Shown here in pieces: positions 11,201 to 24,847 of a stretch of DNA of 64,000 nt. Below the pieces are notes generated by a model that was not told the DNA's origin, made no database searches, and saw only the letters and a program-made list of their open reading frames with translations. Made by a program: the position numbers and the translations under genes. Within the stretch, counting starts at the first letter, position 1; each line of letters opens with the position of its first letter. Location of the stretch: NCBI GenBank assembly GCA_947175195.1, contig CAMWLQ010000003.1, positions 1-64,000 of the forward strand, in the 5' to 3' direction. The stretch comes from an uncultured Clostridia bacterium (GTDB lineage Bacteria; Bacillota; Clostridia; Christensenellales; Pumilibacteraceae).

Positions 11201-14200
11201 GATCGGTTGCAAGCCTTGCGCTGTTGGTTGAATCGTCGGAGTCGTGATACCAGTCGAATGCGCCTATCGTGATATACGGGTTATTATTAATATCAGTGCC
11301 CTTCCACTCGTACGTGCCGTCGGACAACGTCATGCATGCGAGTATTTGGTTGATATTGTTAAGGTCGACTGCACTGTATGTGCCATTAGAATTTTTCGGG
11401 AGCTCATAGCCGACATAAGTATCGGTGGGATATTCGACCTTGCCCATATCGGGATTGCTCGTCTTTGCACCGACAAGAGTGGACAGCAAGCCAAAATAGC
11501 TCATAGGCACGTATACGGACTGATACGTAACGTTTTCGCCCGACGCGGTGTGCCCTGTTGCTATCGCCGAAGGCACCTCTATCGTGTCGCTGTACTTAAA
11601 CGCACCCGCAACATCGCCCGAGGTTGCGGTATATACCGCTCCCGAGGTCGCTTTGTTGGCAAGCGAGCCGTCATCGGTATTGCCGTCGTAAGTGGATATA
11701 TACCGAGTGGTAGTAGGCGTCGTGCCCGCAGTAGTGTACTCTACGGTATAATAGTCGTTGTTTTGACCCAAGTATTCGTTGATAGAGCGAATACCTGTTT
11801 TGGATATATGCTGATAAACGGTGATAAGCAGTCTACCGTTGACCACAACGTTGCCCGCACTGCGGTTGCTGTTAAACGCAGTAGCAGCTCCTGCAGTATC
11901 GCCGCCCAATTCCGCTTGGTCGCGCAGCGAGAAACGTACACCGACGTCCTCGTTGGATTCAAAACCGAACTGTGCATGCAACAGCAACGCCCAGTCTGCA
12001 ATTATAAACCGACCGCTATTATCGAAACACGTATCTGACGAAATCGTGCCGCCCGACAAAGCGTTGACAAGCTGGGTGCGCGTATACCAAGTGTTGTTTA
12101 CAAGGAAATTAAGCTCGGCAGTATATCCGGTGGGTACGCCGCCCGCGGTAGTTGTGCCGGTGCGCGTAAACACCTTTACAGCCGAGGGCGTACCGTTGAA
12201 TGTGGACGCGTCAAAGCCTATGCTCGGCACAGCCGCATCAAATGCATCAGCCGTTTTATTGATGTAACTAAATACTGCGTTGCCGCTTTCGTTGGTGATA
12301 TTGGTGCATTGGGAAAGCACTACCTTGTTGTGCAAGCCGTCTTCGTCCACGGCAATGAGCTTGATGTCTATATCAAGCGCGCCCTTTGCCGTCTTAAGGC
12401 TGTCGGCAGCGGTTTGCGAGCCTACTATATAACGACTGCGCATTATATCGCCGTCACTTGTTGACTCGATATTCCACATGGGATTTTGCGCGTCAAAGCC
12501 GTTTGTTTCCGACTCGTTAAGCACAGGCACGGTGTTAATCACCTCTATTTGGACATAGCCAAGCGAAGTTCCGCCGCTGTTGTCCGTTACAAAGAACGCA
12601 ACGTACACACCGCCCACAATCGCCTTGGTCGAGCTGACTGCGCTTACCGAAAGCTCACGACGGCTGAGTATTTCCGCAGTTACGTAGTTGGTAAGCGACA
12701 AAGTGCCGTTTGCAGTATACTTATCAGCCAGGCCGTCAAACGAATCAAACGTCAATATATCTATTGCCGTGCCGTCGGCGGTGGTCAAATTGTTGGTGTT
12801 GTAGCCGTCTACAAAGCTCTTGTTTACCACGGCTATGCCGCTCGCCATCATGTATTCGGGCACGTCACGGTCGTGGTCTTCCATAAGACCCGTTTCGCTG
12901 CCGTTGCCGTTGGCGTACAGTACGGCTATATCGGGCGTAACAACCGTTTGTCCCGACACGATGGGCTTTACGGACAGTTCCTTATAGTACGCGGGATTTT
13001 TAATATTCGGTTTGGTATTTACAACCTCTATAACTATGCGCACGGTAAAGCTGCTGCTGCCGTCGGACGAGTTGCTGCCGTAGCGGTCGCGCACTACCAA
13101 GTCCACCACTGCGGGCTGCGTAGTACGGTTGAGCGCGGTGAGCATCATAAAGTCTACCGCATAGGTAGTGCCGCCAATTTTGACGTTTGTGCCGAAATCG
13201 ACGTCCACAAAGTTGGCGGTGTTGGCTTTGGATGCGCTTACGTTGTTGAATGTAGTGGGATTGTACGTATACGCGTCCGAGCCGCCCGTTGTACGTTCAA
13301 AGTACAGCTTGTCGATTACCATATTGGCATTGGCGGTGGTCGCGGTGTTTGACGCAGTGCCGCTCGCCGTGTTGCTCACCTTTTTGACGAGCGTTGTCTT
13401 ATTGGTAGAGCTGAGGAAGGTAGACGCTGCCGCATTGTACGAGCTTGCGAACATACCGGTAAACTGCTTGTTTCCGTCAGCCGCGGCGTTGCTGCCCGTA
13501 GTAAACAAGCCCGTGCTCGAATTGTACCGTCCGCTGTAGCCGTTGAGCGTAAATCCGCCGGTTACCTCGTTGACGCCTACAACGCCCATGTTGTAGTCGT
13601 ATGCAAGATCGTAAGGCGTTACCATAACGGTGCCGCCGAGCGGAATCTTGTACGTAAAGGTGGGCGTATCGCCGTTTGCCGCATAGGAATATGTGCTGTA
13701 CGCACTGTCGCGTTCGGGATTGCCGAACGTGGCTATCTTGCCGCTGTCGTCCTTGTAGGTTTGGAGCGGCGTGTTCTTAACGCGGATTGCAATATTTATT
13801 GTGGAAACCGCATTGCTCGTTACGTCGTTTACGCCTGCCGTGGCATAGACGTATCTATTCATTGTCGCGGACTTAAGCGTTATTTTAAGTCCGTCAATCG
13901 TGTAGTAAGCGGTGTTGTCCGATGCGACCGGCAGATTGACAAAATAGTAGCCGTTGCCGTTAGTGCCGCTGCCGACTACAACACGCCCGCCGCCGTATGC
14001 CGCTGTTGCAAAGTAGCTCCTCGATATATAAATAGGTATTGTTTGAGCCTTGATATAGTAATTTTCCCAAACTCCGTTGGAGTTGGTTACGCCAACCTCG
14101 CTGACGCTTTTTACTATCTGCTCTGGCGTGGTGGTCAAACGCAAAAGCTCGTTGAGTTTTTTTCCGTTGCCCCAAGTAGCAAGTCCGTTGGCTGTGGAGA

Positions 14201-16943
14201 AATTGTCGCCGTCTATGGCAAGCGGCTGCAAGCCTGTGGAAGTGAGCGCGCCGGTATTTTCGCCGTTTGCGTCCTCCGCCTTGTACTGACCTACCACGTG
14301 CGAGCCGCTGTAGTTAATCGCCATCGGCGCAAAGTAGAAACTGTCCCCCACCGCGCCGTCGGCTGTCGGGAACGTCGAAACGGCTGTTTGACTTGTTACC
14401 GAGCTGGGCGACGTAACGGTGGCAACGGGAGTGTGCGACGTCGTGTTGGAATTACCGACAGTAAACGCAAGCGGCAGCCATATGCCGTTGTCGGCGGTTT
14501 CCCGCTTGTCGCTGATATGCAACAACAGGTAGAAATGTCCGATTGCGCCCGTCCTGCTTTGACTGTACTGCGAGTAGCTCGCCCTAAGTCCGGTTACGGT
14601 CAACACGTCGTTTGCGTAGGTAAAGCTCATAAACGCTTGTTCTCGTATCGTACCCGATACGGGTGACGTCGCGTTGTATGCTATATTAGCGTTAAATCCG
14701 GTTGTGGTAGTGCCTGTTGCAGTGGTAGTGAACGGATCGCCGGACACGGTAGCGCCCGTCGTGTAACCTATGTTGTAGCCCGTTGCCGCAACAACCTTTT
14801 GCTGTCTGTCGATAAGGACAAACTCGTTGGCGGGAACGGAAACACCCGTTATGGTGTGCGTGCTCGAACTGATTGTCGCGGTATCGGCGTCACTGAAATA
14901 CGTATTGAGCGAAAGCGATTGGGACGCGCCCACTGTGACGTTTATGGCGCTGCTCGCCGCCGATTTAAGTACGGGGCGAATATTGCCCATTTTGAACACG
15001 ATTTCCAAGCTGATTGCGCTTATACCCGGAACAACATTGGGATAGCTCGACCCGAAAGCCGTTGTCTTTTCCACCGTATAAATAGTTATAGGCAAAACCT
15101 GATAATTCGGATCGGGCGTAATACACTCTAATGTGAGCTGCGAATACGCATTGGCAATAACGGTCTTGTTAGCCAAATACGCCGTGACCTTGCTGGTGTT
15201 GTTGTCCACCTCTTGGATTTTATACTTACGCGCCGAGCCTGTTATAGCGGTAGTGGAATTTATGGATATGACAGCTTGGTCGTAGTTGCCGCTAATCGAC
15301 AAGCCGCTCAAAAGGCTTGCCGCCGTTATGGGTGTGTATGCCTCGCCTATCGTAAGCGATTTTTTGATAAACAGCGTACTCCTGCCCGTACCGTTGGGAT
15401 TAAATATGCCGGACGCCGAGGCGGGATCCACGGGCGGCGAAGTGGACGCGATTGTAGACGCACCTACGTTGCTTTGTCCCGACACTACTCCCGTCCTGAG
15501 CGACACGGTATCGACGGTTACGGTTACCGTAAACGTAATCTTGGATACTCCACGGGTGGTTGTACTGCCGAATGCGTCGCGTATGTAAACGTACAACGTA
15601 AGTTTTCCGTCCGCAGTACTGCCGTCGGTACCGCTACGCGGATAGCGTTTTACGTTTGTTATAGTAAGCGTTGTCGCACTTGACGTAGCACTCCAAGTCC
15701 AGTCAAAGTAGTTGGTTGCATACGAACCGGTGGAAAGCCACAGTCCGGTATTGGCAGTAGGCGAAGTGTCGTAGTTGGACGACGTGTTGTTGGTATAATA
15801 CACCGCCGTACCTTCGGGGTCGGTAGCAAGAGTGGACGCCGCAATTGCGGTGGTAGAGGTCGAGCCTCTCGATTGTACAGTAACAGACGCACTTCTAGTC
15901 GTGGGAACCCTATTGACCGACACAACGGTTATAACAGCCTTACCGTTGCCCGTAACCGACGTTTGCGTTGTGTTGGAAATAGTTGTAAGAGTGCTTTTTA
16001 TGTAATTGCAGCCACCGCCGCCGGGGCAGCCGTAGCAAGTTGCACCACTGCTTCCGCCGGCACCGCCATAGTAGCCGCCGCCACCGCCTGCGCCACCGCA
16101 ACCGCTCGATACCGATGCGCCATTGCCGCCTTGACCGAATGAACCCGAACCACCGGCAGTAGTAAGTGATGAATAAGGAGTGGAACCTACGCTACTCGTG
16201 CCACCGCCGGAAGTAGAGCCGCCGGTAGCCGTATTAGTATATGACGAGTTGTAAATAGCAGTTCCACCGGTCGGACCACCGTTGCCACCGACTGCGGACG
16301 CATTGGAATAGCCGCCGCCACCGCCGCCACCGCCGACAATCAATACCGCACCGGTATTGCTTGACAGCGCACTAAGTTTACCGGTAGCCGTAGCTATATG
16401 AGTAGCACCGCCACCGGAGGCCGTTCTATGCCCGCACGTTCTGTTATAAGTTGTCGAGCCGCCGCCGTTATAGCCGCCTGCCGTAGTCGTGCCTTGCGTA
16501 CTGGTCGCAGTCGCGCCCGCTCCGCCGACACAAATATACAGTGTGGTTGCGGTCGTTATAGTGTACGTAGCTTTGGCGTAACCGCCGTACCCACCCAAAA
16601 TGGAGGAGGAATAACCATAACCGCCTTGCGCGCCCCAAACTTCCAAATAGTACGTTCCGATAGGCAACGTAACCGAATATACGGAGCCCGTATAAGAATA
16701 AGTAAGCGTATCGCCTGCCGCAATCGACGTTGCGGTATAAGTCGTGCCCGACGTAGGAGTGTACGCGGTTGACGTCTTAACCTCGCCCTGCTCCGCGCTA
16801 TCCGTAGCCGTGCGCGTCGGCGTATAACCGATGCATAATGCGCACGTAATCGCCACCGCGAGCGCGGTAATAACCGCAGCAAGCATGATAATCACGCGCC
16901 GTGTTAATTTAGTATTCGTATTCTGATTGTTTGTTCGCCTCAT
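5208..16943 (-). CDS. giant membrane-anchored surface protein, 3,911 residues, glycine-rich domain plus Ig/cadherin-like repeats
   Basis: Residues about 15-40 are a basic-then-hydrophobic signal segment. Residues about 65-340 form a glycine-rich domain with EVWGAQGGYG, CVGGAG, GGGATHI and runs of Gly, matching the ALK/LTK-type glycine-rich family (PF12810-like). About 3,300 residues of beta-rich Ser/Thr/Asp/Asn sequence follow, with recurring repeat boundaries of the N-x-x-P type (NTKPNI near 1310, NTVPVL near 1468, NGDPSL near 2304, NQTPSV near 2484, NDAPYT near 3368, NRSPQI near 3668), as in cadherin-like and Ig-like repeats. One membrane helix lies near 3798-3820 (MWIIIICCALLLLVVLIIII), then RKRKRER and a Pro/Gln/Gly-rich cytoplasmic tail of about 85 residues. 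There is no LPXTG sorting signal, so it is held by the helix. It probably acts in adhesion or as a surface layer; the ligand is unknown. A GAGGT Shine-Dalgarno precedes the ATG. Confidence 0.9.
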   Translation of the reverse strand: MRRTNNQNTNTKLTRRVIIMLAAVITALAVAITCALCIGYTPTRTATDSAEQGEVKTSTAYTPTSGTTYTATSIAAGDTLTYSYTGSVYSVTLPIGTYYLEVWGAQGGYGYSSSILGGYGGYAKATYTITTATTLYICVGGAGATATSTQGTTTAGGYNGGGSTTYNRTCGHRTASGGGATHIATATGKLSALSSNTGAVLIVGGGGGGGGYSNASAVGGNGGPTGGTAIYNSSYTNTATGGSTSGGGTSSVGSTPYSSLTTAGGSGSFGQGGNGASVSSGCGGAGGGGGYYGGAGGSSGATCYGCPGGGGCNYIKSTLTTISNTTQTSVTGNGKAVITVVSVNRVPTTRSASVTVQSRGSTSTTAIAASTLATDPEGTAVYYTNNTSSNYDTSPTANTGLWLSTGSYATNYFDWTWSATSSATTLTITNVKRYPRSGTDGSTADGKLTLYVYIRDAFGSTTTRGVSKITFTVTVTVDTVSLRTGVVSGQSNVGASTIASTSPPVDPASASGIFNPNGTGRSTLFIKKSLTIGEAYTPITAASLLSGLSISGNYDQAVISINSTTAITGSARKYKIQEVDNNTSKVTAYLANKTVIANAYSQLTLECITPDPNYQVLPITIYTVEKTTAFGSSYPNVVPGISAISLEIVFKMGNIRPVLKSAASSAINVTVGASQSLSLNTYFSDADTATISSSTHTITGVSVPANEFVLIDRQQKVVAATGYNIGYTTGATVSGDPFTTTATGTTTTGFNANIAYNATSPVSGTIREQAFMSFTYANDVLTVTGLRASYSQYSQSRTGAIGHFYLLLHISDKRETADNGIWLPLAFTVGNSNTTSHTPVATVTSPSSVTSQTAVSTFPTADGAVGDSFYFAPMAINYSGSHVVGQYKAEDANGENTGALTSTGLQPLAIDGDNFSTANGLATWGNGKKLNELLRLTTTPEQIVKSVSEVGVTNSNGVWENYYIKAQTIPIYISRSYFATAAYGGGRVVVGSGTNGNGYYFVNLPVASDNTAYYTIDGLKITLKSATMNRYVYATAGVNDVTSNAVSTINIAIRVKNTPLQTYKDDSGKIATFGNPERDSAYSTYSYAANGDTPTFTYKIPLGGTVMVTPYDLAYDYNMGVVGVNEVTGGFTLNGYSGRYNSSTGLFTTGSNAAADGNKQFTGMFASSYNAAASTFLSSTNKTTLVKKVSNTASGTASNTATTANANMVIDKLYFERTTGGSDAYTYNPTTFNNVSASKANTANFVDVDFGTNVKIGGTTYAVDFMMLTALNRTTQPAVVDLVVRDRYGSNSSDGSSSFTVRIVIEVVNTKPNIKNPAYYKELSVKPIVSGQTVVTPDIAVLYANGNGSETGLMEDHDRDVPEYMMASGIAVVNKSFVDGYNTNNLTTADGTAIDILTFDSFDGLADKYTANGTLSLTNYVTAEILSRRELSVSAVSSTKAIVGGVYVAFFVTDNSGGTSLGYVQIEVINTVPVLNESETNGFDAQNPMWNIESTSDGDIMRSRYIVGSQTAADSLKTAKGALDIDIKLIAVDEDGLHNKVVLSQCTNITNESGNAVFSYINKTADAFDAAVPSIGFDASTFNGTPSAVKVFTRTGTTTAGGVPTGYTAELNFLVNNTWYTRTQLVNALSGGTISSDTCFDNSGRFIIADWALLLHAQFGFESNEDVGVRFSLRDQAELGGDTAGAATAFNSNRSAGNVVVNGRLLITVYQHISKTGIRSINEYLGQNNDYYTVEYTTAGTTPTTTRYISTYDGNTDDGSLANKATSGAVYTATSGDVAGAFKYSDTIEVPSAIATGHTASGENVTYQSVYVPMSYFGLLSTLVGAKTSNPDMGKVEYPTDTYVGYELPKNSNGTYSAVDLNNINQILACMTLSDGTYEWKGTDINNNPYITIGAFDWYHDSDDSTNSARLATDPYSSAYYNNRLAVVTRTPEDTSIGYEQYEPNVNNIVGEDEMIMYLEEQATKLIEHNFGLTFTKKNVRTSTRSLSFTINLARYKGTSVALTNGEISNVDRRTVELKIHVENSKLDLYSHGDESNAAQSMTDKVKYDTVKGTYYTDLELKSSESAAYTLSRKAVGQNPSTAEHVIEYYDDDYGTADKRDYAYFSSDSFMQLSQWQVGAEGYNRAMKLTDNDSAFANVLATSDKAQKSVENYFGVNDYDSKSAFIAALNDSDKAYKNGTYQANAGMYGVAGKDGYSSYFNASLTNNNTTLNIMPVRKTFINETAFGNDNVPDLKTVDTTSQESVAEAYARRGLVALYDSTSVDPLTPSRVYYPFKVLIYDSFGLGFNDASYVAIELRITIINGDPSLKLVGEANGEGRQYSMNLAVGNSATINLYDIVSDPDIYTYTQNNVGRLSTKAYFETNSTGIVCETGDYLDSPLERDEYKTVQYHPDVQKEGEVYYYNGGGFVSVDSDAYSERDVVMYMNVTGSGAPQYNTIMFRVNRRTTATYNNRSVSVDRYKFTLRFYDGTGAYTAPFTFIINITNQTPSVTQVNRSFTMRAGDDITILTSYYDVFSGANDSRIATAYRYSDTYTMITERQASAGYGTTFGDGSNNATGNGEFWKFADITTATAGGTHITYDSTLDRGSDGSTVHLGYVGLATDDTPWRLRFTEWTQSNDRINVYSEGMLALRPEGSAANASAQTMALRIIARSACINEPFTVTIADGEGGIITCTLYITIVSSPPIALDCSDDDENVKITDIGLEGVYNANGSVNTGTFATYIVPAEGTHTFNVAGVGQRTARRVTTVRMNGVARDPDGDSETRNMRLYGNGEFVVNEQPLVSDVDGVYRTEYFEIKPSTDGLSFTITATGYNPDTTRGYEELQFRIADYGDSAYDNTLLITIRIYTLYSDMTNPTAATATGNAYTNYLKGSDTINVKSYDVFYNPAQPTDSSKYAFVNMTGNVGNDNNNLSPIVDPDATVSGDANYDVRMYAFIDVQDDGSVIALSSDAIRAMLDQNGTRKTFRLKTDGDYSDYMIGGRLADGTTVPVGNVGNVKLNAILNYASFEFAADGASVLFTPKASTLNSSEFILYVEVTKPIGDRAFSRTDAVLSAGSLFKLNVIDSAPQAVDGRHEVEGVKGTVGTFTVFNPEDRYGALFMDSDAGDNVTVHGIVNNRLTDAEYENVMSEAIRTMPGLEWRADTATGRPRAFDISINNNGEMEVKINRRIDYVVGGVYQPSVTIPLIITGEDSVGERVTTTVYVTIHNSDLGAVESYTEINAQTQVGYTFVHDDNDEYVMNVQLRFDTALEVNLADILTDNDTATYDADSYRFVLPKSQGGYTYITDKKENVDWYELDSNGNPNIDNTKTLATAEPVGDDDLHITGILFNAVATERDLTGTVYVRIIDRSADVDVDTNGIIIKINVIVMNDAPYTLDGKENTTLYMIGSENGEPAGMLFFIGDFVADKNDSDVVGDDESALNPDTCLRIVRQDARAATNVYSQKYTTIPDSFGITDIVMSTALFEVTIPARLDDTLLRDYCKRMGKEYGFKDNTNLYNQWFVVKPREGFYGSGAVDITIVDGNANVKDDTLSTTFCLEVHVISNPNEVIDGLTDVELACSKTKQLDIRSLMPDLPNNLALDENYTNFDGSDQASVFSQYEYYEIVSIGFQNEIDKSKADFNKLDESGQLWEIKAGNQVTRDPVRVEVNFALKSDKSVTYKKYFYLNIVANRSPQIKFTEIVFKRHGDDGNVDELRDLDEANTIRLQAWQLFEDADDPEGTAIRFVDVKSQVSSLVKAKLVKDENGEYKYLEISFVARGESEITVTVTDETGSPVQLKFIASNKDLPEASLWVKLAASFESNMVMWIIIICCALLLLVVLIIIIAVIRKRKREREEIEALLVSEMEIEEQMLKLAGGPSPTDYQSFGYLPGGPAPQADPSMMLGAGTDAPQQQLTALPPAQDPIDGNGGSDAAM

Positions 16944-17265: not shown

Positions 17266-18915
17266 ATGGCAGAAAGCGATTTGATTCGCGGCAACGTAGA
17301 TACCATAATCCTGAAAGTCTTGTACGAGGGCGACCGCTACGGCTACGATTTGATACGACAAATCAATGCGCGCGGCGACGGTCAGTGGGAAATAAAACAA
17401 CCCACCGTTTACGCTTGCCTCAAACGGCTGGAAAAGCAGGGCTTTGTCACCTCCTACTGGGACTCTGCCGAATCCGACGGCGGACGACGCAAATATTACT
17501 CTCTTACCGAAAGCGGCAGAGAGGTCTTTTTAAAGTACAAAAGCGAGTTTGAGCGCGCCAACGCTTTGTTCGGCGGCTTGATTTCGGGCTCCGAGCCTAC
17601 CGTATTCATTCAGCCCACCGACGATTTTTCGGACGTGGAGGACGAAGGCTATACCCTGCCTAAGCGCAAGCCCAAACGCACGCCCAAAAAACCGACTGCG
17701 GACAAGCCCGCCGACAACACCGATAATACCGACTTTGCACAAATAACCGAGGAGACTGCCGCGCCCGAGCTTGACGAACAGCCTATCGAGCAAACCCAAG
17801 CCGACTCCCCTATCGATAATTATTTTGCGACCGACGATACCGAAGAGCCGCAAATTGCGGAGGAACAGCTCCGCACCGCGCCCGCCGCCGAAACACCGAC
17901 GCGCGAGGCGCTCGATCCAAAACTGATAATAGAGCAGTATTTTGCCGCCGAAAACGGCGAAAGCTATTCCGATATTCAACGCAAACGCACTTTCGCGCCC
18001 ATAGACGAGCCTGTACCCCAGCCTGCGCCCGAACGCGAAACGCCCGTGCCTCCGCCCGCGCCCGTAGTGCAAAAGACGGAGCCTCCGGCGCCCGTAGTGC
18101 AAAAGCCGTTACAGCCCGCGCCCGCGCAACCCACTTTGCCCACGCCGACGGACGACAGACCTATGCTTGTGCCTGCGGCAATAAAGGGCTTTGAGCCAGC
18201 GCCAGTAGAGAAAAATCCTATCGGGTTTACTACCGAAGAAGAATCCCCTGCCCGCCGCGAATACAAAGCGGTGCTCGGCGATCTTGTGGACAGGTTTGAA
18301 GTGACGTCGCCCGATATTCGCACCGCAAGAACTGCGGCGCAAGAGCAGGCGGCGACATCCGAACAAACCGCGGGACAGCTCGGCAAGGTCGAGCAAGCCG
18401 TGCGCGAACTCGGCAACGACGTAAAGATACGCAACCACAACAATTCGGCAAAGGAATACGCGGGAAAGAATTTTTATTACAGCAATCGGCTGATGATGAC
18501 GCACTACACGGGCATGTGCCTTGCAATGTTCTTAATCGGGCTTGCGCTGTTCCTAATTTTCTATGCCGGACTTAATATGCGCATGCAGTACGACTACGTA
18601 CTGTACATTTGCGCGGGGCTACTGCCGATATTCATGTTTATAACAGCCGTTATATGCTACGCCAACAATCCCGAAAAGACGCGGCGCATCAACGTAAACT
18701 TTAAGTTTGCATTGATAATCCGCATTGTCATAATGATTCAGGTGGCGGTCGTCATTTATTGCGTCAACTTGATTTGCGGTATGCCGCTCGCCTTCTCCGA
18801 ATATTACGTTCCGTCAATCGTGCTGCCGCTCGCATATGCTTTATTCATTCCGATCAGCGAAATAATATTTATCAATCTTTTGAATTCGGGTAAATATTCG
18901 GACAACAAGCAGTAA
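17266..18915 (+). CDS. membrane-anchored PadR-family regulator (winged helix, long disordered linker, four membrane helices)
   Basis: Residues 1-104 are a clear PadR winged helix: GNVDTIILKVLYEGDRYGYDLIRQI, PTVYACLKRLEKQGF, then the beta wing GGRRKYYSLTESG. Ordinary PadR proteins continue with a short dimerisation helix. Here residues about 105-410 are instead a low-complexity linker rich in Pro, Glu, Thr and Ala (for example PVPPPAPVVQK repeated). Residues about 415-535 hold four hydrophobic helices, ending in a short polar tail. The predicted product is a transcription factor tethered to the membrane that could sense a membrane signal. The start follows AGAGGTGAG by a suitable gap. The next gene, a recombinase, starts 6 bases after the stop. 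I know no characterised protein of this architecture. Confidence 0.85.
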   Translation: MAESDLIRGNVDTIILKVLYEGDRYGYDLIRQINARGDGQWEIKQPTVYACLKRLEKQGFVTSYWDSAESDGGRRKYYSLTESGREVFLKYKSEFERANALFGGLISGSEPTVFIQPTDDFSDVEDEGYTLPKRKPKRTPKKPTADKPADNTDNTDFAQITEETAAPELDEQPIEQTQADSPIDNYFATDDTEEPQIAEEQLRTAPAAETPTREALDPKLIIEQYFAAENGESYSDIQRKRTFAPIDEPVPQPAPERETPVPPPAPVVQKTEPPAPVVQKPLQPAPAQPTLPTPTDDRPMLVPAAIKGFEPAPVEKNPIGFTTEEESPARREYKAVLGDLVDRFEVTSPDIRTARTAAQEQAATSEQTAGQLGKVEQAVRELGNDVKIRNHNNSAKEYAGKNFYYSNRLMMTHYTGMCLAMFLIGLALFLIFYAGLNMRMQYDYVLYICAGLLPIFMFITAVICYANNPEKTRRINVNFKFALIIRIVIMIQVAVVIYCVNLICGMPLAFSEYYVPSIVLPLAYALFIPISEIIFINLLNSGKYSDNKQ

Positions 18916-18921
18916 TCACCA

Positions 18922-20028
18922 ATGAGCTCTTATTTTGACGAAAGAACAGAGAAAACACTAACCGCAATCGAGGATGTACTCGATACCCTGCCCTACTTTG
19001 CACGGGAGTTTAACGTGGGTATATCCATGCGGACTATGCCGCTTACAAGGCTCGGATACCTACGGGATATTCGAGTCTTTTGCGATTATCTTGTTAAACG
19101 CAAATTCAAGCGCGACAATCTTATGATTATCGACCTTACGGTAGAGCATCTTGCCCAGGTTACCCCTACCGATATAGAAATGTATATCGACTACCTGTCC
19201 ATGTACACAATGGACGGCAAAAAGCATATGTGCAAGGAACACGCCAAGGAGCGCAAGGTGTCAAGCCTGCGCGCGCTGTTCAAGTATTTTTACAAGCGCG
19301 AAAAAATCGACCATGACGTCATGACCAAGGTAGATACGCCCAAGGTCCACCTCAAGCCAATTGTGCGCCTGGACGTGAACGAGGTCGTGGACATCTTGGA
19401 CGAGGCGGAAACCGGCGACAACCTTACAGGCAGGCAAAAGGCGTTTCACGACGCTACCGCAGTGCGCGACGAGGCTATGCTGTCGCTGTTTTTGGGCACG
19501 GGTATTCGTATAAGCGAGTGCGTGGGGCTCAACCGTTCCGATATTAACTTTGCCGACAACAGCTTTATGGTGACGCGCAAGGGCGGCAATACGTCCGTAC
19601 TCTATTTTTCGGAAGAGGTTGCCGACGCACTGCGCAAGTACATAGACTGGCTGGACGGACAAATCGCCGAGGGCACTCCCTTCGGCAAGCGCGTGTACGA
19701 TCCCGACGCGCTGTTCATTTCCGGCAAGGGCGGACGAATGACGCCGCGCGCCGTACAGCTTATGGTCAAAAAATACGCCAAAATCACCACCCCGTTCAAA
19801 AAGATAACGCCGCACAAGCTGCGCAGCACGTACGGCACCAATCTTTACCACGAAACGCACGATATTTTCGTCGTGGCGGAGGTTTTGGGTCATACCGACG
19901 TCAACACCACGCGCAAGCATTACGCCGCAATGAGCGAGGATATTCGCCGCGAGGCTGTAAGCAAGGTAAAGCTGCGCGATAAGGACGCGCAAGCCCCCGA
20001 CGATGACGACGGTGACGACGATGAATAA
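18922..20028 (+). CDS. tyrosine recombinase, XerS-like
   Basis: A 368-residue tyrosine recombinase with all catalytic residues visible: R196 (GTGIRISE), K220 (TRKGG), H298 and R301 (HKLRSTYGT), H324 (LGHTDVNTT) and Y334 (KHY). The N-terminal core-binding domain (about 10-140) has the extended layout of single-recombinase XerS/XerH proteins (about 355-365 residues) rather than the roughly 300 residues of XerC/XerD. Similarity to streptococcal XerS extends through IEDVLDTLPYFAREF and the RKGG stretch. XerS resolves chromosome dimers at one dif-type site; I could not identify such a site here. It ends in a very acidic tail (DDDDGDDDE). A different integrase function cannot be excluded. It lies in one unit with the padR gene and the following small gene. 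Confidence 0.8.
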   Translation: MSSYFDERTEKTLTAIEDVLDTLPYFAREFNVGISMRTMPLTRLGYLRDIRVFCDYLVKRKFKRDNLMIIDLTVEHLAQVTPTDIEMYIDYLSMYTMDGKKHMCKEHAKERKVSSLRALFKYFYKREKIDHDVMTKVDTPKVHLKPIVRLDVNEVVDILDEAETGDNLTGRQKAFHDATAVRDEAMLSLFLGTGIRISECVGLNRSDINFADNSFMVTRKGGNTSVLYFSEEVADALRKYIDWLDGQIAEGTPFGKRVYDPDALFISGKGGRMTPRAVQLMVKKYAKITTPFKKITPHKLRSTYGTNLYHETHDIFVVAEVLGHTDVNTTRKHYAAMSEDIRREAVSKVKLRDKDAQAPDDDDGDDDE

Positions 20029-20404
20029 CGACGCGGCGCGGCTGCTTAACGACGCCGTAATAAATAGGCTTGCGGATATTTACCTGTCGTTTTTGAATAT
20101 CCCCACCTGCCGACAAAGCTACCGCCGCATTAAAAATGCGGTTATTCTTTGCGCGCTTGTTTACGACGATATGTCGTTGGTATACGCCGAACTGGAAAAA
20201 ACAGAAATATGCTCGGCGGCGGAAATAGCGCGCGATATTGCCACGACCATTAACAGCCTACCCAATCCGATTGGGGAAACGTTCAACAACGCGTACTGCG
20301 CCGAATCGGAAATGGGCTTTATGCCAAAACACAAAAATACCGAGGACATTATAGCATTCCTCGGCAAAACTTTCCTATATATACTGGAAACTAATTATAG
20401 ATAA
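20021..20404 (+). CDS. small protein resembling a stand-alone Spo0A C-terminal DNA-binding domain
   Basis: About 127 residues. It lacks a receiver domain, but the pattern fits a divergent Spo0A_C fold: LNIPTCRQSYRRIKNAVILC resembles the Spo0A stretch IGVPPHLKGYRYLREAI. The helix-turn-helix region is SAAEIARDIATTINSL, and the end KNTEDIIAFLGKTF resembles PTNSEFIAMIADKL. The start at 20021 overlaps the recombinase stop (ATGAATAA), implying coupling; an ATG at 20003 is the alternative. A second gene of this type is at 59633-59962. The assignment comes from pattern matching by eye; treat the function as unknown. Confidence 0.6.
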   Translation: MNNDAARLLNDAVINRLADIYLSFLNIPTCRQSYRRIKNAVILCALVYDDMSLVYAELEKTEICSAAEIARDIATTINSLPNPIGETFNNAYCAESEMGFMPKHKNTEDIIAFLGKTFLYILETNYR

Positions 20405-20430
20405 TAAGGTTGAGGCAACTCGACCTTATT
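20403..20430. terminator. bidirectional terminator between convergent units
   Basis: A 12-bp stem with one G-U pair: AATAAGGTTGAG at 20403-20414, loop GCAA, and CTCGACCTTATT at 20419-20430, followed by TTCTTAATT. It ends the padR unit and overlaps the stop codon of the opposing activase gene. Confidence 0.8.
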
Positions 20431-21379
20431 TCTTAATTCTCACTGCGCCGTTGTCGCACTTGTTGCCCCAAGAATCGATGAGCTCGTCCTCTTTGTAAAC
20501 ACATATGATTTCGCAATGGTTGGCGCACTTGCCGCACTCGAATCCGCGCGTTTTAAATTCTATGTCCGCAATATCGAACGAGAACGGGTTTTCCTTGCCG
20601 CTGCGCCTTGCAAGCACAGCAACGCCGAACGCGCCCATAAGGTGTCCGTTTTCGTCGACCGTTACCTCGCTGCCCACCTCGTCCTCAAACGCTTTTTTTA
20701 CGCCCACGTTCTTGCTGACGCCGCCCTGAAAAACTATGGGCGCTTTTATTTTTTTGCCCTTGCCTATATTGTTGAGGTAATTGGTTACAACCGCCTTGCA
20801 CAGCCCCGCAATTATATCCTCTTTTTTGTGACCTATTTGTGCCTTGTGCACAAGATCGCTTTCGGCAAACACCGTGCAGCGCGCCGCTATATTTGTAGGG
20901 TTTTTGGAGGTAAGCGCTATCTCGCCGAAGTCCTCTACCGACACGCCCAGCCTGTGCGCCTGACTGGACAAAAACGAGCCCGTCCCCGCCGCACACAGCG
21001 TGTTCATTGCGTAATCGACAACAAACCCGTTTTCGATTATAATGATTTTGGAGTCCTGCCCGCCTATTTCGAATATGGTGTTTACATCGGGATGTATGGT
21101 CGTAGTGCCTATTGCGTGCGCGGTGATTTCGTTTTTGACAACGCTTGCGCCAGTCATAACGCCGATAAGCTTACGCGCGCTGCCCGTCGTTCCCACGGAC
21201 ACTATATCGACGTCCTTTCCGTCCAGCTGACGCTCCAACGCTTTAAGTAGCTTTTTAACCGCGCCCGTAGGATCGCCTTCCGTCCATAAATATTCCTTTG
21301 CGAGTATATTGTTGTCGCCGTCTATAACCACGCCCTTGGTGGAAATAGAGCCTATGTCTATACCTAAATATGCCTTCAT
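20426..21379 (-). CDS. BadF/HgdC-type ATPase, activator of a 2-hydroxyacyl-CoA dehydratase-like reductase
   Basis: A 317-residue ASKHA-fold ATPase: phosphate-1 loop GIDIGSISTKGVVID at the N-terminus, EIGGQDSK phosphate-2 loop, NTLCAAGTGSF with the cysteine that ligates the inter-subunit [4Fe-4S] cluster, and AARCTVFAESD with a second cysteine. These proteins form homodimers around one cluster and use ATP to push electrons into a partner. The C-terminus has extra cysteines (FECGKCANHCEIICVYK) that standard HgdC lacks; they may bind another cluster. The partner proteins are the two genes directly upstream. The start overlaps the preceding gene by 4 bases (ATGA). Last gene of the marR operon. 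Confidence 0.88.
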   Translation of the reverse strand: MKAYLGIDIGSISTKGVVIDGDNNILAKEYLWTEGDPTGAVKKLLKALERQLDGKDVDIVSVGTTGSARKLIGVMTGASVVKNEITAHAIGTTTIHPDVNTIFEIGGQDSKIIIIENGFVVDYAMNTLCAAGTGSFLSSQAHRLGVSVEDFGEIALTSKNPTNIAARCTVFAESDLVHKAQIGHKKEDIIAGLCKAVVTNYLNNIGKGKKIKAPIVFQGGVSKNVGVKKAFEDEVGSEVTVDENGHLMGAFGVAVLARRSGKENPFSFDIADIEFKTRGFECGKCANHCEIICVYKEDELIDSWGNKCDNGAVRIKK

Positions 21380-22461
21380 ACCGCCTTACTCCTTTCGCCC
21401 GCTTTTCGGACCTCTATCATATCGTAAAATGCCTCCAGTCGCGTTTTTACGCCCGTTTCGCTCGTTTGCGAATCGAAACTGAAATGCAAAATGGGAATAT
21501 GCAAATCGTCGCTCACGCGCTGCAAAATGGGCGTTGCGTCGTTTTCAGGCATACACCCGAACGACTTGACGTGAATAACGCCGTCACAGCCCGACCGCGC
21601 AAACTCCATTGCCTCCGCTATCGTGCTGTTTGCCGTTGCGCCTATATCGAACTTAACGTAATCCTTTGCGTAATCGCGTTTGCGCTTGTTTTCGTTATGA
21701 ATAATCGTGCATGAAAAATTCATTTTTCTATAAACCTCCATGCCGAACTTGGCAAGCTCCTTTTCCATAAAGTGATTTGAAAACGGCTCTTGCACGGTGT
21801 AGTAATCGCCGACAAACCCGATTTTGAGCGTATTTTTCGGCTTGTCCGTCTTGATTGCGTTTAGCGCATTCCAATACTCGACTATAAGCGCCTTTACCGT
21901 CTTTCCGTCGTTGGCTTTGGCAAGCTTTGCCAAGAACTCGTTGTACGTTTTGTCGAACTCACCGTTCACCACCTCAAACCCGACGTTGCGGCGTATAAAG
22001 TCCTCAAACTTGTCGAGCGCTTTGATTATTCTGATCGTGGTCGGCGCCGCGGCAACCACCTTTGCAATCGACACGTCGGGATTGATAATCTTAAGATTTT
22101 TCATTATCGACTTGGGCGACGACCATTTTATTTCCGCCATATTAAAGAACATAAACTCATAGCCCATGTCGCGCAGGAGCTGCTCCTGCAGCTCGCCGTA
22201 ATACTCCAACCTACATTCGCCGTAAATTTGTGCAAGGCAGTTTGCGCCAAGCTCCAAAGCCTCGATATACGTGCCCAAGCAATACTTAAACGGCACGCAA
22301 ACATAGTCGGGACTGTACTTGCCGCCAATCTCGAGCGTCTTTTTTGTTATGGGTGGAGGAATGAGATAGCTTACCCCAAACCCGTTTTCCATTAAATATC
22401 TAAACGCATACGCGTAGTTCCCTATGTGCGGGAAACATACAATAATATCTTTGCGATCCAT
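21376..22461 (-). CDS. HgdB/COG3581-like subunit of an ATP-driven reductase
   Basis: 361 residues resembling the 2-hydroxyglutaryl-CoA dehydratase D-component family: FPHIGNYAYAFRYLMENGFGV, then PPITKKTLEIGGKYSPDYVCVPFKYCLG, then NCLAQIYGECRLEYYGE. Cysteines at about 55, 60, 74 and 82 and in SFGCMPEND are candidate Fe-S ligands. In many Clostridia this domain is part of one long polypeptide with the activase and DUF2229 domains; here the three are separate genes. It follows the DUF2229 gene by 12 bases. The substrate cannot be read from the sequence. Confidence 0.8.
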   Translation of the reverse strand: MDRKDIIVCFPHIGNYAYAFRYLMENGFGVSYLIPPPITKKTLEIGGKYSPDYVCVPFKYCLGTYIEALELGANCLAQIYGECRLEYYGELQEQLLRDMGYEFMFFNMAEIKWSSPKSIMKNLKIINPDVSIAKVVAAAPTTIRIIKALDKFEDFIRRNVGFEVVNGEFDKTYNEFLAKLAKANDGKTVKALIVEYWNALNAIKTDKPKNTLKIGFVGDYYTVQEPFSNHFMEKELAKFGMEVYRKMNFSCTIIHNENKRKRDYAKDYVKFDIGATANSTIAEAMEFARSGCDGVIHVKSFGCMPENDATPILQRVSDDLHIPILHFSFDSQTSETGVKTRLEAFYDMIEVRKAGERSKAV

Positions 22462-22473
22462 AATTATTCTCCG

Positions 22474-23406
22474 TCAGTCGTGGCACTGTTGTTTTTGAGC
22501 CTGCTTTTTCAGCTCGATAATATCCACAAAGCTCTCAAGCCGCGTTTCCATACCCGCGGTGCCGGACTGTGCGTCCACCGTCAAAGTAATCATAGGCTTG
22601 TCCTTGTACTTGCGTATAAGCAGCTCGTCCATCATACTGTCCGTGCCGCAGGGAAACGCCGTTACCAAGATTATGCCGTCCACGTTGTCCTTTAACAGCT
22701 CCACCGCGCCGACAAGATGACGGTTGTACGGCCACTGCATTGTGGTGGTAACGTCCTGCGAGGCGCGTATACATTCGCGTTCGTCCGCATATTCGGCTAT
22801 TATAGGCTCACAGCCAAGCGCTTTGACGGCGCTTATTATAGGGTCGCCTATGTATTTATCGCCCACGCAATAGGCGTGCGCAACAATAAGTATTTTTGTT
22901 TTGTCGGTGTTTTCCAGTACCGCGTTTTGCTTTTGCTCACGCAGCATATCGTAGTTCATTTGCGCTTGCTTTGCCATTATGTACGCATACTTGATTTGCG
23001 ACCGCTTAATGCCGAGGAACTTGCCCATTTTGTAAACAGCCTTGCGCTCGCGGTAAACGTTTCTGTCGTAAATATCGTAATACAACAGTTTAACGTTCCT
23101 GTCACAAAACGTCGTGTTTACCACGTCGGGCAAAGCCCAAAACTTTGTGCACATTTCGTACTTAAGCCAGTACTTTTGCCTCGGCACGAATATGTAGTCA
23201 CACTTGTCCAAAAGCCATTCTACAGCCCCGAGCATAATCTTTGACGGCAAGCACGCCTCGTCGATTGCGAGGTTGGAGCCGTTGGTGACGACCTGCTTGT
23301 CGGTTTCGGGACTGACAATATAGTCAACGCCTATCTCGTCGAAAAACGTCGTCCAAAATTTGTGATGCTTATAATATAAAAGCGCTCTCGGTATTCCTAT
23401 CTTCAT
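22474..23406 (-). CDS. DUF2229/COG3580 protein, partner of the activase and HgdB-like subunit
   Basis: A 310-residue protein opening MKIGIPRALLYYKHHKFWTTFF, the family signature, followed by DEACLPSKIMLG. Conserved-looking cysteines also occur in AHAYCVGDK and AFPCGTDSMMDE, positions where this family holds Fe-S ligands. The C-terminal part TLTVDAQSGTAGMETRLESFVDII parallels the end of the next gene (SFDSQTSETGVKTRLEAFYDMI), so the two are ancient relatives that probably pair. It starts 3 bases after the degV stop. Confidence 0.8.
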   Translation of the reverse strand: MKIGIPRALLYYKHHKFWTTFFDEIGVDYIVSPETDKQVVTNGSNLAIDEACLPSKIMLGAVEWLLDKCDYIFVPRQKYWLKYEMCTKFWALPDVVNTTFCDRNVKLLYYDIYDRNVYRERKAVYKMGKFLGIKRSQIKYAYIMAKQAQMNYDMLREQKQNAVLENTDKTKILIVAHAYCVGDKYIGDPIISAVKALGCEPIIAEYADERECIRASQDVTTTMQWPYNRHLVGAVELLKDNVDGIILVTAFPCGTDSMMDELLIRKYKDKPMITLTVDAQSGTAGMETRLESFVDIIELKKQAQKQQCHD

Positions 23407-23409
23407 AAT

Positions 23410-24255
23410 TTACTTTGCAAAGAATGCAACCGCTATTGCATTCGGTCCTATGTGTGTGCCTATCGTACTGCCTATCATATACGACGGAATATTCTCCGTT
23501 TTACCCTTCCACAACTGTTCGCTGTCCTGCAAATATTTTTGCAGGTAATCGCCCGAAAGTCCCGAATACGCCAACGCATACGGCATATCAAAGTCGATTC
23601 CGCCGCACTTTTCGACAAGCTGGTTTAAAAGGTTGTTGCTCTTTTTAGATCCCATAGCCTTGCCGACAAGCTTTATTTCGCCCTTTACGATTGAGATAAC
23701 CGGCTTGATTGACAACAATTCGCCCGCTATCGCAGCCACGGACGATATACGCCCGCCCTTGCGCAGGTATTTTAACGTACCCAATACGGCAAGCAGCTGT
23801 ATTTTATTCTTTTTGTCGTTAAGCTCTTTTACTATTTCAGCTGCGGTCTTGCCTTCGCCGATAAGCCTGAGAGCGTATTGCAACAAAATTCTTTCGCCTA
23901 TACACGCCTCGATGCTGTCCACTACGTGAACTTTGCCGCCGAACTTTTTTGCCGCCTTAACGGCGCTCGAATACGTTCCCGACAGCTTGGACGAAATAGT
24001 AATGGCTATTACCTCGCTGCCGTCGGCGGTAAGCTCGCCAAAGCTTTCCTCCCAAGCATATTCGTTTACCTGACTCGTTTGCGGCAGCTCCGCGCTCTCT
24101 ATCAGTTTGTCAAAAAACTCCTTGTGAGTTAAGTCTATGCCGTCCGAAAACTCCTCGTCGCCGAAACGCACCTTCATGGGTATTAAATATATGCCTAACT
24201 GCTCCGCCTCGTCCTTTTCCACGTCGGAGGCGGAGTCAACTATAATTTTAATCAT
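23410..24255 (-). CDS. DegV-family fatty-acid-binding protein (FakB-like)
   Basis: A 281-residue two-domain DegV protein: IIVDSASDV at the N-terminus, PQTSQVN, and ITISSKLSGTYSSA, which form the carboxylate- and acyl-binding pocket in this family. DegV/FakB proteins hold a fatty acid and present it to fatty acid kinase FakA. No fakA is present in this window. The gene overlaps marR by 8 bases and precedes the reductase genes, suggesting that the whole operon handles acyl groups. Confidence 0.9.
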   Translation of the reverse strand: MIKIIVDSASDVEKDEAEQLGIYLIPMKVRFGDEEFSDGIDLTHKEFFDKLIESAELPQTSQVNEYAWEESFGELTADGSEVIAITISSKLSGTYSSAVKAAKKFGGKVHVVDSIEACIGERILLQYALRLIGEGKTAAEIVKELNDKKNKIQLLAVLGTLKYLRKGGRISSVAAIAGELLSIKPVISIVKGEIKLVGKAMGSKKSNNLLNQLVEKCGGIDFDMPYALAYSGLSGDYLQKYLQDSEQLWKGKTENIPSYMIGSTIGTHIGPNAIAVAFFAK

Positions 24256-24697
24256 TGTTTTTAACCAAATCCTTGTAATAAGTTTTTAAGTTATCGACTA
24301 TCGTACCAAGTGATTTGTAAAAGAATATACGCTCCTCGGCGGTAAAATCGACGCTGCCAGCCTTAACAGCTTGGACTGCCCTGCCGCAAATGTTGACGGC
24401 TATCTCCTTGCCCGTATCCGTCAACACAATAACGGCATTGCGCCCGTTGGAATCGTGTTTGACGTGACCGTTATCCTGCATAATTTTGAGCGCACGCGAA
24501 ATCGCAGCCTTGTCCTCCAGCGTCAATTCGACAAGCTCCTTTGCCGTAAGCCCTTGCGGATTTTTATTGAGATAGTAAAGGCACATGACATGAATGGTCT
24601 TCAATCCGTACTTTTCAATCTCAAAGGCCTTGATTTTTTGCACAAGCTTGTTAAGCGCTAAAATAGCATTTGTAAAATCCTCGAATAACTGTTCCAT
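24248..24697 (-). CDS. MarR-family transcriptional regulator, probable autorepressor of the operon
   Basis: 149 residues with the MarR winged helix: YGLKTIHVMCLYYLNKNPQGLTAKELVELTLEDKAAISRALKIMQDNGHV, then a short wing and VLTDTGKEIA. The ATG at 24697 is chosen because AAAGGTGATT lies directly before it; a GTG at 24703 is possible. The promoter just upstream is bracketed by two palindromes sharing AGTTGATTNNTCAACT, which strongly suggests self-control of marR-degV-DUF2229-HgdB-activase. The operator resembles those of FabT, the MarR-type regulator of fatty acid synthesis in lactic bacteria, but orthology is not shown. Confidence 0.88.
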   Translation of the reverse strand: MEQLFEDFTNAILALNKLVQKIKAFEIEKYGLKTIHVMCLYYLNKNPQGLTAKELVELTLEDKAAISRALKIMQDNGHVKHDSNGRNAVIVLTDTGKEIAVNICGRAVQAVKAGSVDFTAEERIFFYKSLGTIVDNLKTYYKDLVKNND

Positions 24698-24706
24698 AAT
24701 CACCTT

Positions 24707-24726
24707 TTAGTTGATTAGTCAACTAA
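24707..24726 (-). promoter_or_regulatory. operator 1 of the marR operon
   Basis: Palindrome TTAGTTGA-N4-TCAACTAA between the -10 box and the start codon, covering the predicted transcription start and touching the ribosome-binding region. Confidence 0.8.
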
Positions 24727-24729
24727 CAT

Positions 24730-24758
24730 AGTATATCGTATTATATGCACGTTGTCAA
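24730..24758 (-). promoter_or_regulatory. marR operon promoter
   Basis: On the minus strand TTGACA (complement of 24753-24758), 17 bases, TATACT (complement of 24730-24735). It lies exactly between two operator copies whose centres are 57 bp apart. Confidence 0.85.
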
Positions 24759-24760
24759 CC

Positions 24761-24786
24761 AAATTAGTTGATTAATCAACTAATTT
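24761..24786 (-). promoter_or_regulatory. operator 2 of the marR operon
   Basis: A perfect 26-bp palindrome with half-site AAATTAGTTGATT, immediately upstream of the -35 box. It shares the core AGTTGATTNNTCAACT with operator 1. Confidence 0.85.
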
Positions 24787-24814
24787 GCGCATAATCGTCA
24801 GTTTAAAGCAAACA

Positions 24815-24847
24815 AAAACAGCCTTGCATTACCTGCAAAGCTGTTTT
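24815..24847 (-). terminator. terminator of thrS
   Basis: Stem AAAACAGC/GCTGTTTT with an inner TTGC/GCAA pairing across one mismatch; on the minus strand the stem is followed by TTTGTTTGC. It sits 11 bases after the thrS stop codon. Confidence 0.75.

Follow-up and report, generated by a model that had tools for sequence, protein, structure and literature searches.

A MarR- and DegV-linked operon encoding a three-piece, PlsA-related reductase in an uncultured Clostridia bacterium

The operon and its promoter region

We analyzed a stretch of 64,000 nucleotides (nt) from an uncultured Clostridia bacterium (Pumilibacteraceae; contig CAMWLQ010000003.1, positions 1 to 64,000), hereafter the window, in which five tightly packed minus-strand genes form a single block resembling a transcription unit. 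The genes encode, in this order, a MarR-family regulator, a DegV protein, a DUF2229 reductase subunit, an HGD-D-like reductase subunit and a BadF/HgdC-type activase; we refer to the last three as the trio. The marR gene (24248..24703 if begun at GTG) matches Pfam MarR_2 at 37 bits. Its likelier start is an ATG at 24697 behind AAAGGTG, and the GTG lies within this Shine-Dalgarno stretch (sequence 24690-24710). The marR gene overlaps degV (23410..24255; Pfam DegV, 245.7 bits; PDB matches to FakB/DegV-type fatty-acid-binding proteins) by 8 nt, and 3 nt separate degV from the DUF2229 gene (22474..23406; Pfam DUF2229, 144.9 bits). The HGD-D-like gene (21376..22461) follows after a 12-nt gap, matches Pfam HGD-D at 35.6 bits and DUF2229 weakly, and overlaps the activase gene (20426..21379; Pfam BcrAD_BadFG, 155.7 bits; TIGR00241, 185.8 bits) by 4 nt. 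A terminator-like hairpin with a 14-pair stem just behind the threonyl-tRNA synthetase gene thrS (24815..24847, minus strand) sets thrS apart from the operon. Purifying selection acts on all five genes (dN/dS about 0.03-0.12 in comparison with loci L042-L044 of relatives), and the activase is the operon gene nearest to threonyl-tRNA synthetase in constraint (dN 0.016-0.030 versus 0.009-0.013).

A sigma-70-type promoter, TTGACA-17-TATACT (24730..24758, minus strand), agrees with the consensus at 11 of 12 positions and lies between two palindromes. The distal one, around TTAGTTGATTAATCAACTAA, is a perfect 28-nt palindrome (24760..24787) abutting the -35 box, and its core at 24766-24781 has zero mismatches on either strand. 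The proximal one, TTAGTTGACTAATCAACTAA (24707..24726), lies between the promoter and marR; its palindrome at 24709-24724 has one mismatch on the minus strand and, given the spacing, would cover the expected transcription start. The two centres (24716.5 and 24773.5) are 57 bp apart. A first-pass annotation of this DNA had described both the promoter with its flanking palindromes and the five overlapping or abutting genes, and the coordinates and Pfam assignments agree with it.

The arrangement recurs in all five fetched same-genus loci that carry marR (L042-L046). In these and in the window the palindromes lie at -76 and -19 from the marR GTG and TTGACA at -55; in L073 the corresponding positions are -77, -19 and -56. 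When the 150 nt upstream were compared with shuffled sequence, the best perfect inverted repeat exceeded most shuffles, though not all: that of the window was reached by 3 of 200, and those of L046 and L073 were not exceptional. Motif counts are not exceptional: at three mismatches the motif is not above chance in the window (6 matches versus 3.6 +/- 2.0, with 15 of 100 shuffles reaching 6), and at up to two mismatches the whole genome has 8 matches versus 7 for a reversed-pattern control. Four of the 8 are the two known sites, nothing convincing was found beyond them, and this motif gave no link to PlsA or to other lipid genes, where the first-pass annotation had proposed to look for the palindrome. 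It is the near-exact matches and the conserved position among relatives, not motif counts, that make the operator pair convincing. Judging from this conservation and from the location at its own promoter, the MarR protein probably regulates its own expression through the two putative operators. In several remoter relatives, whose MarR proteins are 30-39% identical, the site becomes TTGTTGAC...CAACAA over the -35 box, as co-variation of operator and repressor would predict; several of these TTGTTGAC-type sites are imperfect and unexceptional against shuffles. Three same-genus trio loci lack a recognizable marR: L050 has degV only, and L047 and L048 have neither gene.

The operator had also been likened to that of FabT, a MarR protein responsive to acyl carrier protein-bound acyl chains (acyl-ACP) and described as binding ANTTTGACTGTNAAATT (PMC8406281). 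The half-sites TTGA...TCAA are common to the operator AGTTGATTAATCAACT and to the FabT palindrome given there, but the rest of the palindrome differs. Lipid-responsive control of the operon is plausible. The window MarR itself has a weak DUF4364 match. Elsewhere, nine class-sample loci (for example L185) cluster by a shared DUF4364-type gene, identified as such by Pfam in one member, with the gene divergent from and adjoining the trio in eight of nine; it is a possible alternative regulator.

The reductase trio and its relation to PlsA

The activase ends in a four-Cys tail (Cys282, 285, 289 and 308), and these residues are kept along with Cys129 and Cys168 in 142 of 142 proteins. Its five PDB matches all stop by residue 265 and so fall short of the tail. 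Each reductase subunit carries a putative three-Cys cluster site, formed by Cys52, Cys86 and Cys253 in the DUF2229 subunit (invariant in 167 of 167 proteins) and by Cys55, Cys83 and Cys303 in the HGD-D-like subunit (159 of 159), with no further near-invariant Cys position in either. The two subunits are homologous (hhalign probability 99.9), with the three cysteines aligned. A predicted model of the HGD-like protein shows the fold of 2-hydroxyacyl-CoA dehydratases (HADs) and benzoyl-CoA reductases (BCRs), of the HgdB/BzdO type; comparisons of the modelled fold with HADs, BCRs and double-cubane-cluster proteins (DCCPs) give Z values within 1 and do not separate the three.

The first-pass annotation had recognized the three pieces as the domains of plasmalogen synthase, and here it was right. 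The window genome also encodes, outside the window, a fused protein of 1456 amino acids (aa) with the order Act-Act-tail-DUF2229-HGD (L062:4281-8651; G000 contig C4), and the trio profiles match it one for one (activase 198 bits, DUF2229 125 bits, HGD 35 bits). The four-Cys tail is common to the trio activase and the fused protein and is not covered by the matches to solved activases. We take the fused protein to be of PlsA type from its domain architecture and from the description of PlsA as Act1, Act2, Red1 and Red2 in PMC12838417. Like PlsA, it combines two activase domains with a Cys tail and with the DUF2229 and HGD domains. As judged through this protein, the trio shares with PlsA/PlsR of Clostridium perfringens, and with the single-chain PlsA of Enterococcus and others, the activase, four-Cys tail, DUF2229 and HGD-type domains, including the three cysteines per reductase domain. 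The trio differs in consisting of three chains, ordered DUF2229-HGD-ACT, where PlsA has one or two, and in having one activase domain, not two. It also forms a separate clade, has its own MarR and DegV, and coexists with a PlsA-type protein.

The further proposal was that the trio is a dispersed plasmalogen synthase, which like PlsA/PlsR would turn sn-1 acyl esters of phospholipids into vinyl ethers, with DegV sensing or supplying acyl chains. We consider this unlikely. The one-for-one domain homology and the common Cys tail argue for it, and a single activation domain in a PlsA-like homologue is reported to correlate with plasmalogen production in most genomes screened (PMC13274423). Against it stand the missing first activase domain and the fused protein in the same genome. 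The DUF2229 tree also separates the two groups, with support of 1.0 for the fused-only split, on a branch of 1.56, and of 0.80 for the trio-only split. It was built from 57 trio sequences, namely that of the window plus one in three of the 166 others, and from 13 domains of fused proteins, of which 12 are distinct because one protein was entered twice and none is from C. perfringens. We then consider how the two systems are distributed among 291 genomes of the window's class, of which 92, about one third, have the trio. Both trio and PlsA were found in 50 genomes, the trio only in 42, PlsA only in 129 and neither in 70, in a hand-made tally that scored PlsA as present at a match of E 1e-90 or better to the DUF2229 region of the fused protein. 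The trio could be the plasmalogen enzyme in the 42 genomes without a canonical PlsA match, but there is no clear avoidance between the two (odds ratio 0.65, p 0.09). Since they occur independently, the trio is neither a clear substitute for PlsA nor an accessory of it. Because the window genome already has a full PlsA-type protein, we read its trio as a second fatty-chain reductase rather than as a split copy of PlsA.

Seven of the nine named records searched have a canonical PlsA match. The other two, Dethiobacter (L110) and Clostridiales GWE2_32_10 (L132), have none, the completeness of their records being unstated, and L132 has a remote relative of 1432 aa; no lipid data for either organism were found in the open-access literature. 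Desulfosporosinus species are described as making dimethyl acetals (PMC8982180), which do not discriminate because both Desulfosporosinus genomes searched carry a PlsA-type protein and the trio. An activase and plasmalogens also come up in a paper on Clostridium thermocellum (PMC3478167), which does not help here. Further fused DUF2229 proteins of 1316-1342 aa, 24-28% identical to the trio DUF2229, occur in G313, G391, G324 and G410.

DegV and the genes around the trio

The operon DegV keeps the FakB carboxylate-site residues (named in PMC8892158) as Thr60, Ser92, Arg169 and His268, which are found in 30-31 of the 31 DegV proteins at or near trio loci; the residues were mapped by motif and by PDB alignments. 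These residues uphold its earlier assignment as a probable fatty-acid-binding protein. By the same motif mapping the position of FakB1 Ser171 is apparently Gly. The protein scores below the FakB1 equivalog cut-off (117 versus 350 bits) and, unlike FakB, is linked to a reductase instead of FakA. The genome holds seven DegV genes and two Dak2 (FakA-type) genes, one of which lies beside a different DegV.

Two sets of trio loci were compared: a named set of 80, the best of 432 relatives and hence biased to kin, and a class-wide set of 80, drawn from distinct genomes in the class sample. The upstream sequence is known over 1 kb or more in 72 and 77 of them, respectively. The HGD-like gene adjoins the DUF2229 gene in 77 of the 80 named loci and in all 80 class-wide loci, and the activase follows in 137 of the 149 loci (out of 160) that have room for it. 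In the remaining 12 (L097, L100, L102, L104, L105, L110, L114, L117, L183, L194, L198 and L206) there is none nearby, and 11 of these 12 retain the HGD-like gene; an activase may come from elsewhere or be lost.

Linkage to DegV and MarR is a trait of one clade. In the named set, DegV lies beside the trio at 25 of 80 loci and a similar MarR lies within 2.5 kb at 16 of 80. Within the window's own order, DegV adjoins the trio in 9 of 20 loci besides the window, one of these DegV proteins being from a different subfamily. The orthologous DegV is usually upstream; in L088 it is downstream, with 70% identity. Other DegV subfamilies adjoin trios in L055, L083, L087, L089 and L132. In L073 (5400-9344), whose operon is otherwise similar, degV and the DUF2229 gene are separated by an unrelated gene of 431 aa. 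At three other loci (L120, L122 and L131), 4-90 nt upstream of the trio, there is a gene with AMP-binding, PP-binding and NAD_binding_4 domains, which by these domains would have the make-up of a carboxylic acid reductase. Long-chain aldehydes, but not alcohols, are reported to be used for bacterial plasmalogens (PMC9702350). A nitroreductase-family gene lies 16-26 nt downstream of the trio in L129, L130 and L142.

Other genes of the window lie beyond the operon on the activase side. On the plus strand, a block at 17266-20404 encodes a protein in which a PadR domain is extended by a long linker and a hydrophobic C-terminal region, with a XerS/XerC-like recombinase close behind and a 133-aa gene that has no Pfam match; this PadR/recombinase block also adjoins the operon in L044, L045 and L046. 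On the minus strand, an open frame of 3911 aa (5208-16943) has a glycine-rich ALK_LTK_GRD domain near its N-terminus and is perhaps a giant surface protein.

Proposed function and competing readings

Our preferred reading, which we hold tentatively, is that of an autorepressed operon encoding a stand-alone, three-piece ATP-driven radical reductase directed at fatty acyl chains, in addition to PlsA. A fatty-acyl substrate is favored because of the FakB-type DegV here and the carboxylic-acid-reductase-type gene beside three other trios, neighbors that are hints and not proof. Starting from the gene anatomy, the conserved operator-like palindromes, the homology, the conserved cysteines and the coexistence with a PlsA-type protein, all of them directly established, we infer the cluster types, the heterodimer, the sign and ligand of control, the substrate and the product. 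The trio would belong to the PlsA/Ger branch of the benzoyl-CoA-reductase/2-hydroxyacyl-CoA-dehydratase superfamily and be served by its own FakB-type carrier. MarR dimers would bind both palindromes, one abutting the -35 box and the other over the expected start, and turn the operon off until a ligand, probably a fatty acid or an acyl derivative, releases them. An activase dimer would use ATP to push single electrons from its [4Fe-4S] cluster into a DUF2229:HGD heterodimer with one three-Cys [4Fe-4S] site per subunit, and a second cluster in the four-Cys tail may aid the transfer. The heterodimer would then reduce an acyl carbonyl of a fatty-acyl lipid or an activated fatty acid to a ketyl radical, and the product would be an ether- or aldehyde-type chain, formed besides the plasmalogens of PlsA.

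A bolder version, which we regard as rather improbable, is a fatty-acid-salvage pathway to ether lipids, in which DegV would hand a fatty acid or acyl phosphate to the reductase to give aldehyde or ether chains independently of PlsA and under an acyl-responsive MarR. Long-chain aldehydes, but not alcohols, are reported to be used for bacterial plasmalogens (PMC9702350).

Several observations weigh against the preferred reading. Among the class-wide trios, neither DegV (0 of 80) nor a similar MarR (0 of 80; a far-diverged MarR would be missed) was found beside the trio, so the trio does not in general need a fatty-acid carrier. The 28 same-strand upstream DegV genes among 34 loci (duplicates included) go back mostly to one ancestral event, and DegV is a common family, as its seven copies in the window genome illustrate. 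With mostly one inherited linkage and no class-wide case, DegV recruitment is weakened as a proof of function. When up to four genes on each side were clustered by similarity, no neighbor was conserved class-wide, and the acyl-reductase-type neighbor occurs at three loci only, two of which (L120 and L131) are closely similar. CoA-transferase-type genes, which may hint at a CoA-ester substrate, lie 2-5 kb from the trio at 4 of 180 loci. They are Pfam-confirmed in L131 and L106, and the L106 kind was found by similarity in L112 and L115. Finally, the sequence does not reveal the substrate or the product.

The absence of DegV and of similar MarR proteins beside the trio in the class-wide set, together with recurrent neighbors that resemble unrelated genes, would also suit a trio whose partners are incidental. 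The trio would then be a housekeeping or stress ATP-driven reductase of some non-lipid substrate, perhaps serving to activate another metalloenzyme, and in one clade it would have acquired MarR control and a common DegV as neighbor. Corrinoid reduction by ATP-dependent activating enzymes is described in PMC6739815, and any kinship of these to the trio activase would be hypothetical. We find this account improbable: the orthologous DegV is still linked after rearrangement in L088, other DegV subfamilies lie beside trios at the five loci listed above, and the homology is to the lipid-ester reductase type.

A true HAD of amino-acid fermentation is a more doubtful alternative still. The trio does have the HAD layout of two homologous three-Cys subunits with an ATP-driven activase, and a sequence search of the PDB with the HGD-like protein gives as its top match the beta subunit of a 2-hydroxyacyl-CoA dehydratase (3o3m_B, E 0.0047). 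The NCBIfam HadC model, however, gives 18.5 bits against a cut-off of 700, so there is no equivalog-level match, and the DUF2229 profile finds nothing significant among solved structures, its best match being to a DCCP (E 0.026). Of the homologues found, the PlsA branch, which has the Cys tail, is the closest; in the related (R)-2-hydroxyisocaproyl-CoA dehydratase system, the solved activator is matched over a stretch that does not include the tail. The CoA-transferase-type genes lie outside the immediate trio operon, and by similarity to the examples at the four loci none was seen at the other 176, two kinds of transferase having been sought. Because they are 2-5 kb off and present at so few loci, they do not change the standing of the HAD alternative. 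The main alternative of the first-pass annotation, a double-cubane-cluster reductase of small molecules, is highly improbable and was rejected on cysteine number, since a double cubane needs six in one chain (in BzdN, Cys36/73/100/263/293/327 according to PMC11971306) and each trio subunit has three, the BzdO-like number.

Of the first-pass interpretation as a whole, the homology of the trio to PlsA domains, the type of DegV and a probable MarR autoregulation are retained, whereas the dispersed plasmalogen synthase and the double-cubane reading are not. The enzyme branch itself is already known by homology. Ger, the glycerol ester reductase of Thermotogota and Desulfatibacillum alkenivorans, belongs to the same PlsA-like acyl-ester reductase branch and, by its description in PMC13274423, differs from the trio in having two activase domains inside the protein. 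The same paper notes additional Bacillota PlsA homologues without an activation domain, whose role its authors call unclear. These are possibly the same family as the trio, and the available account describes them without an operon, activase partner, DegV or MarR. No description of the marR-degV-DUF2229-HGD-activase operon was found among the matches listed in searches of the open-access literature, nor were the three-gene unit with its activase and its independence from PlsA.

The locus suggests that the extra activase-less PlsA-like proteins are part of a three-gene unit, usually with an activase of its own and independent of PlsA. In one clade a fatty-acid-binding protein and a local repressor go with this unit, an association that offers a substrate hypothesis within a small operon. 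If this is true, the potential of a genome to make ether lipids would not be predictable from PlsA alone, and if the salvage pathway also holds, the split reductase would be a second, unrecognized source of bacterial ether lipids.

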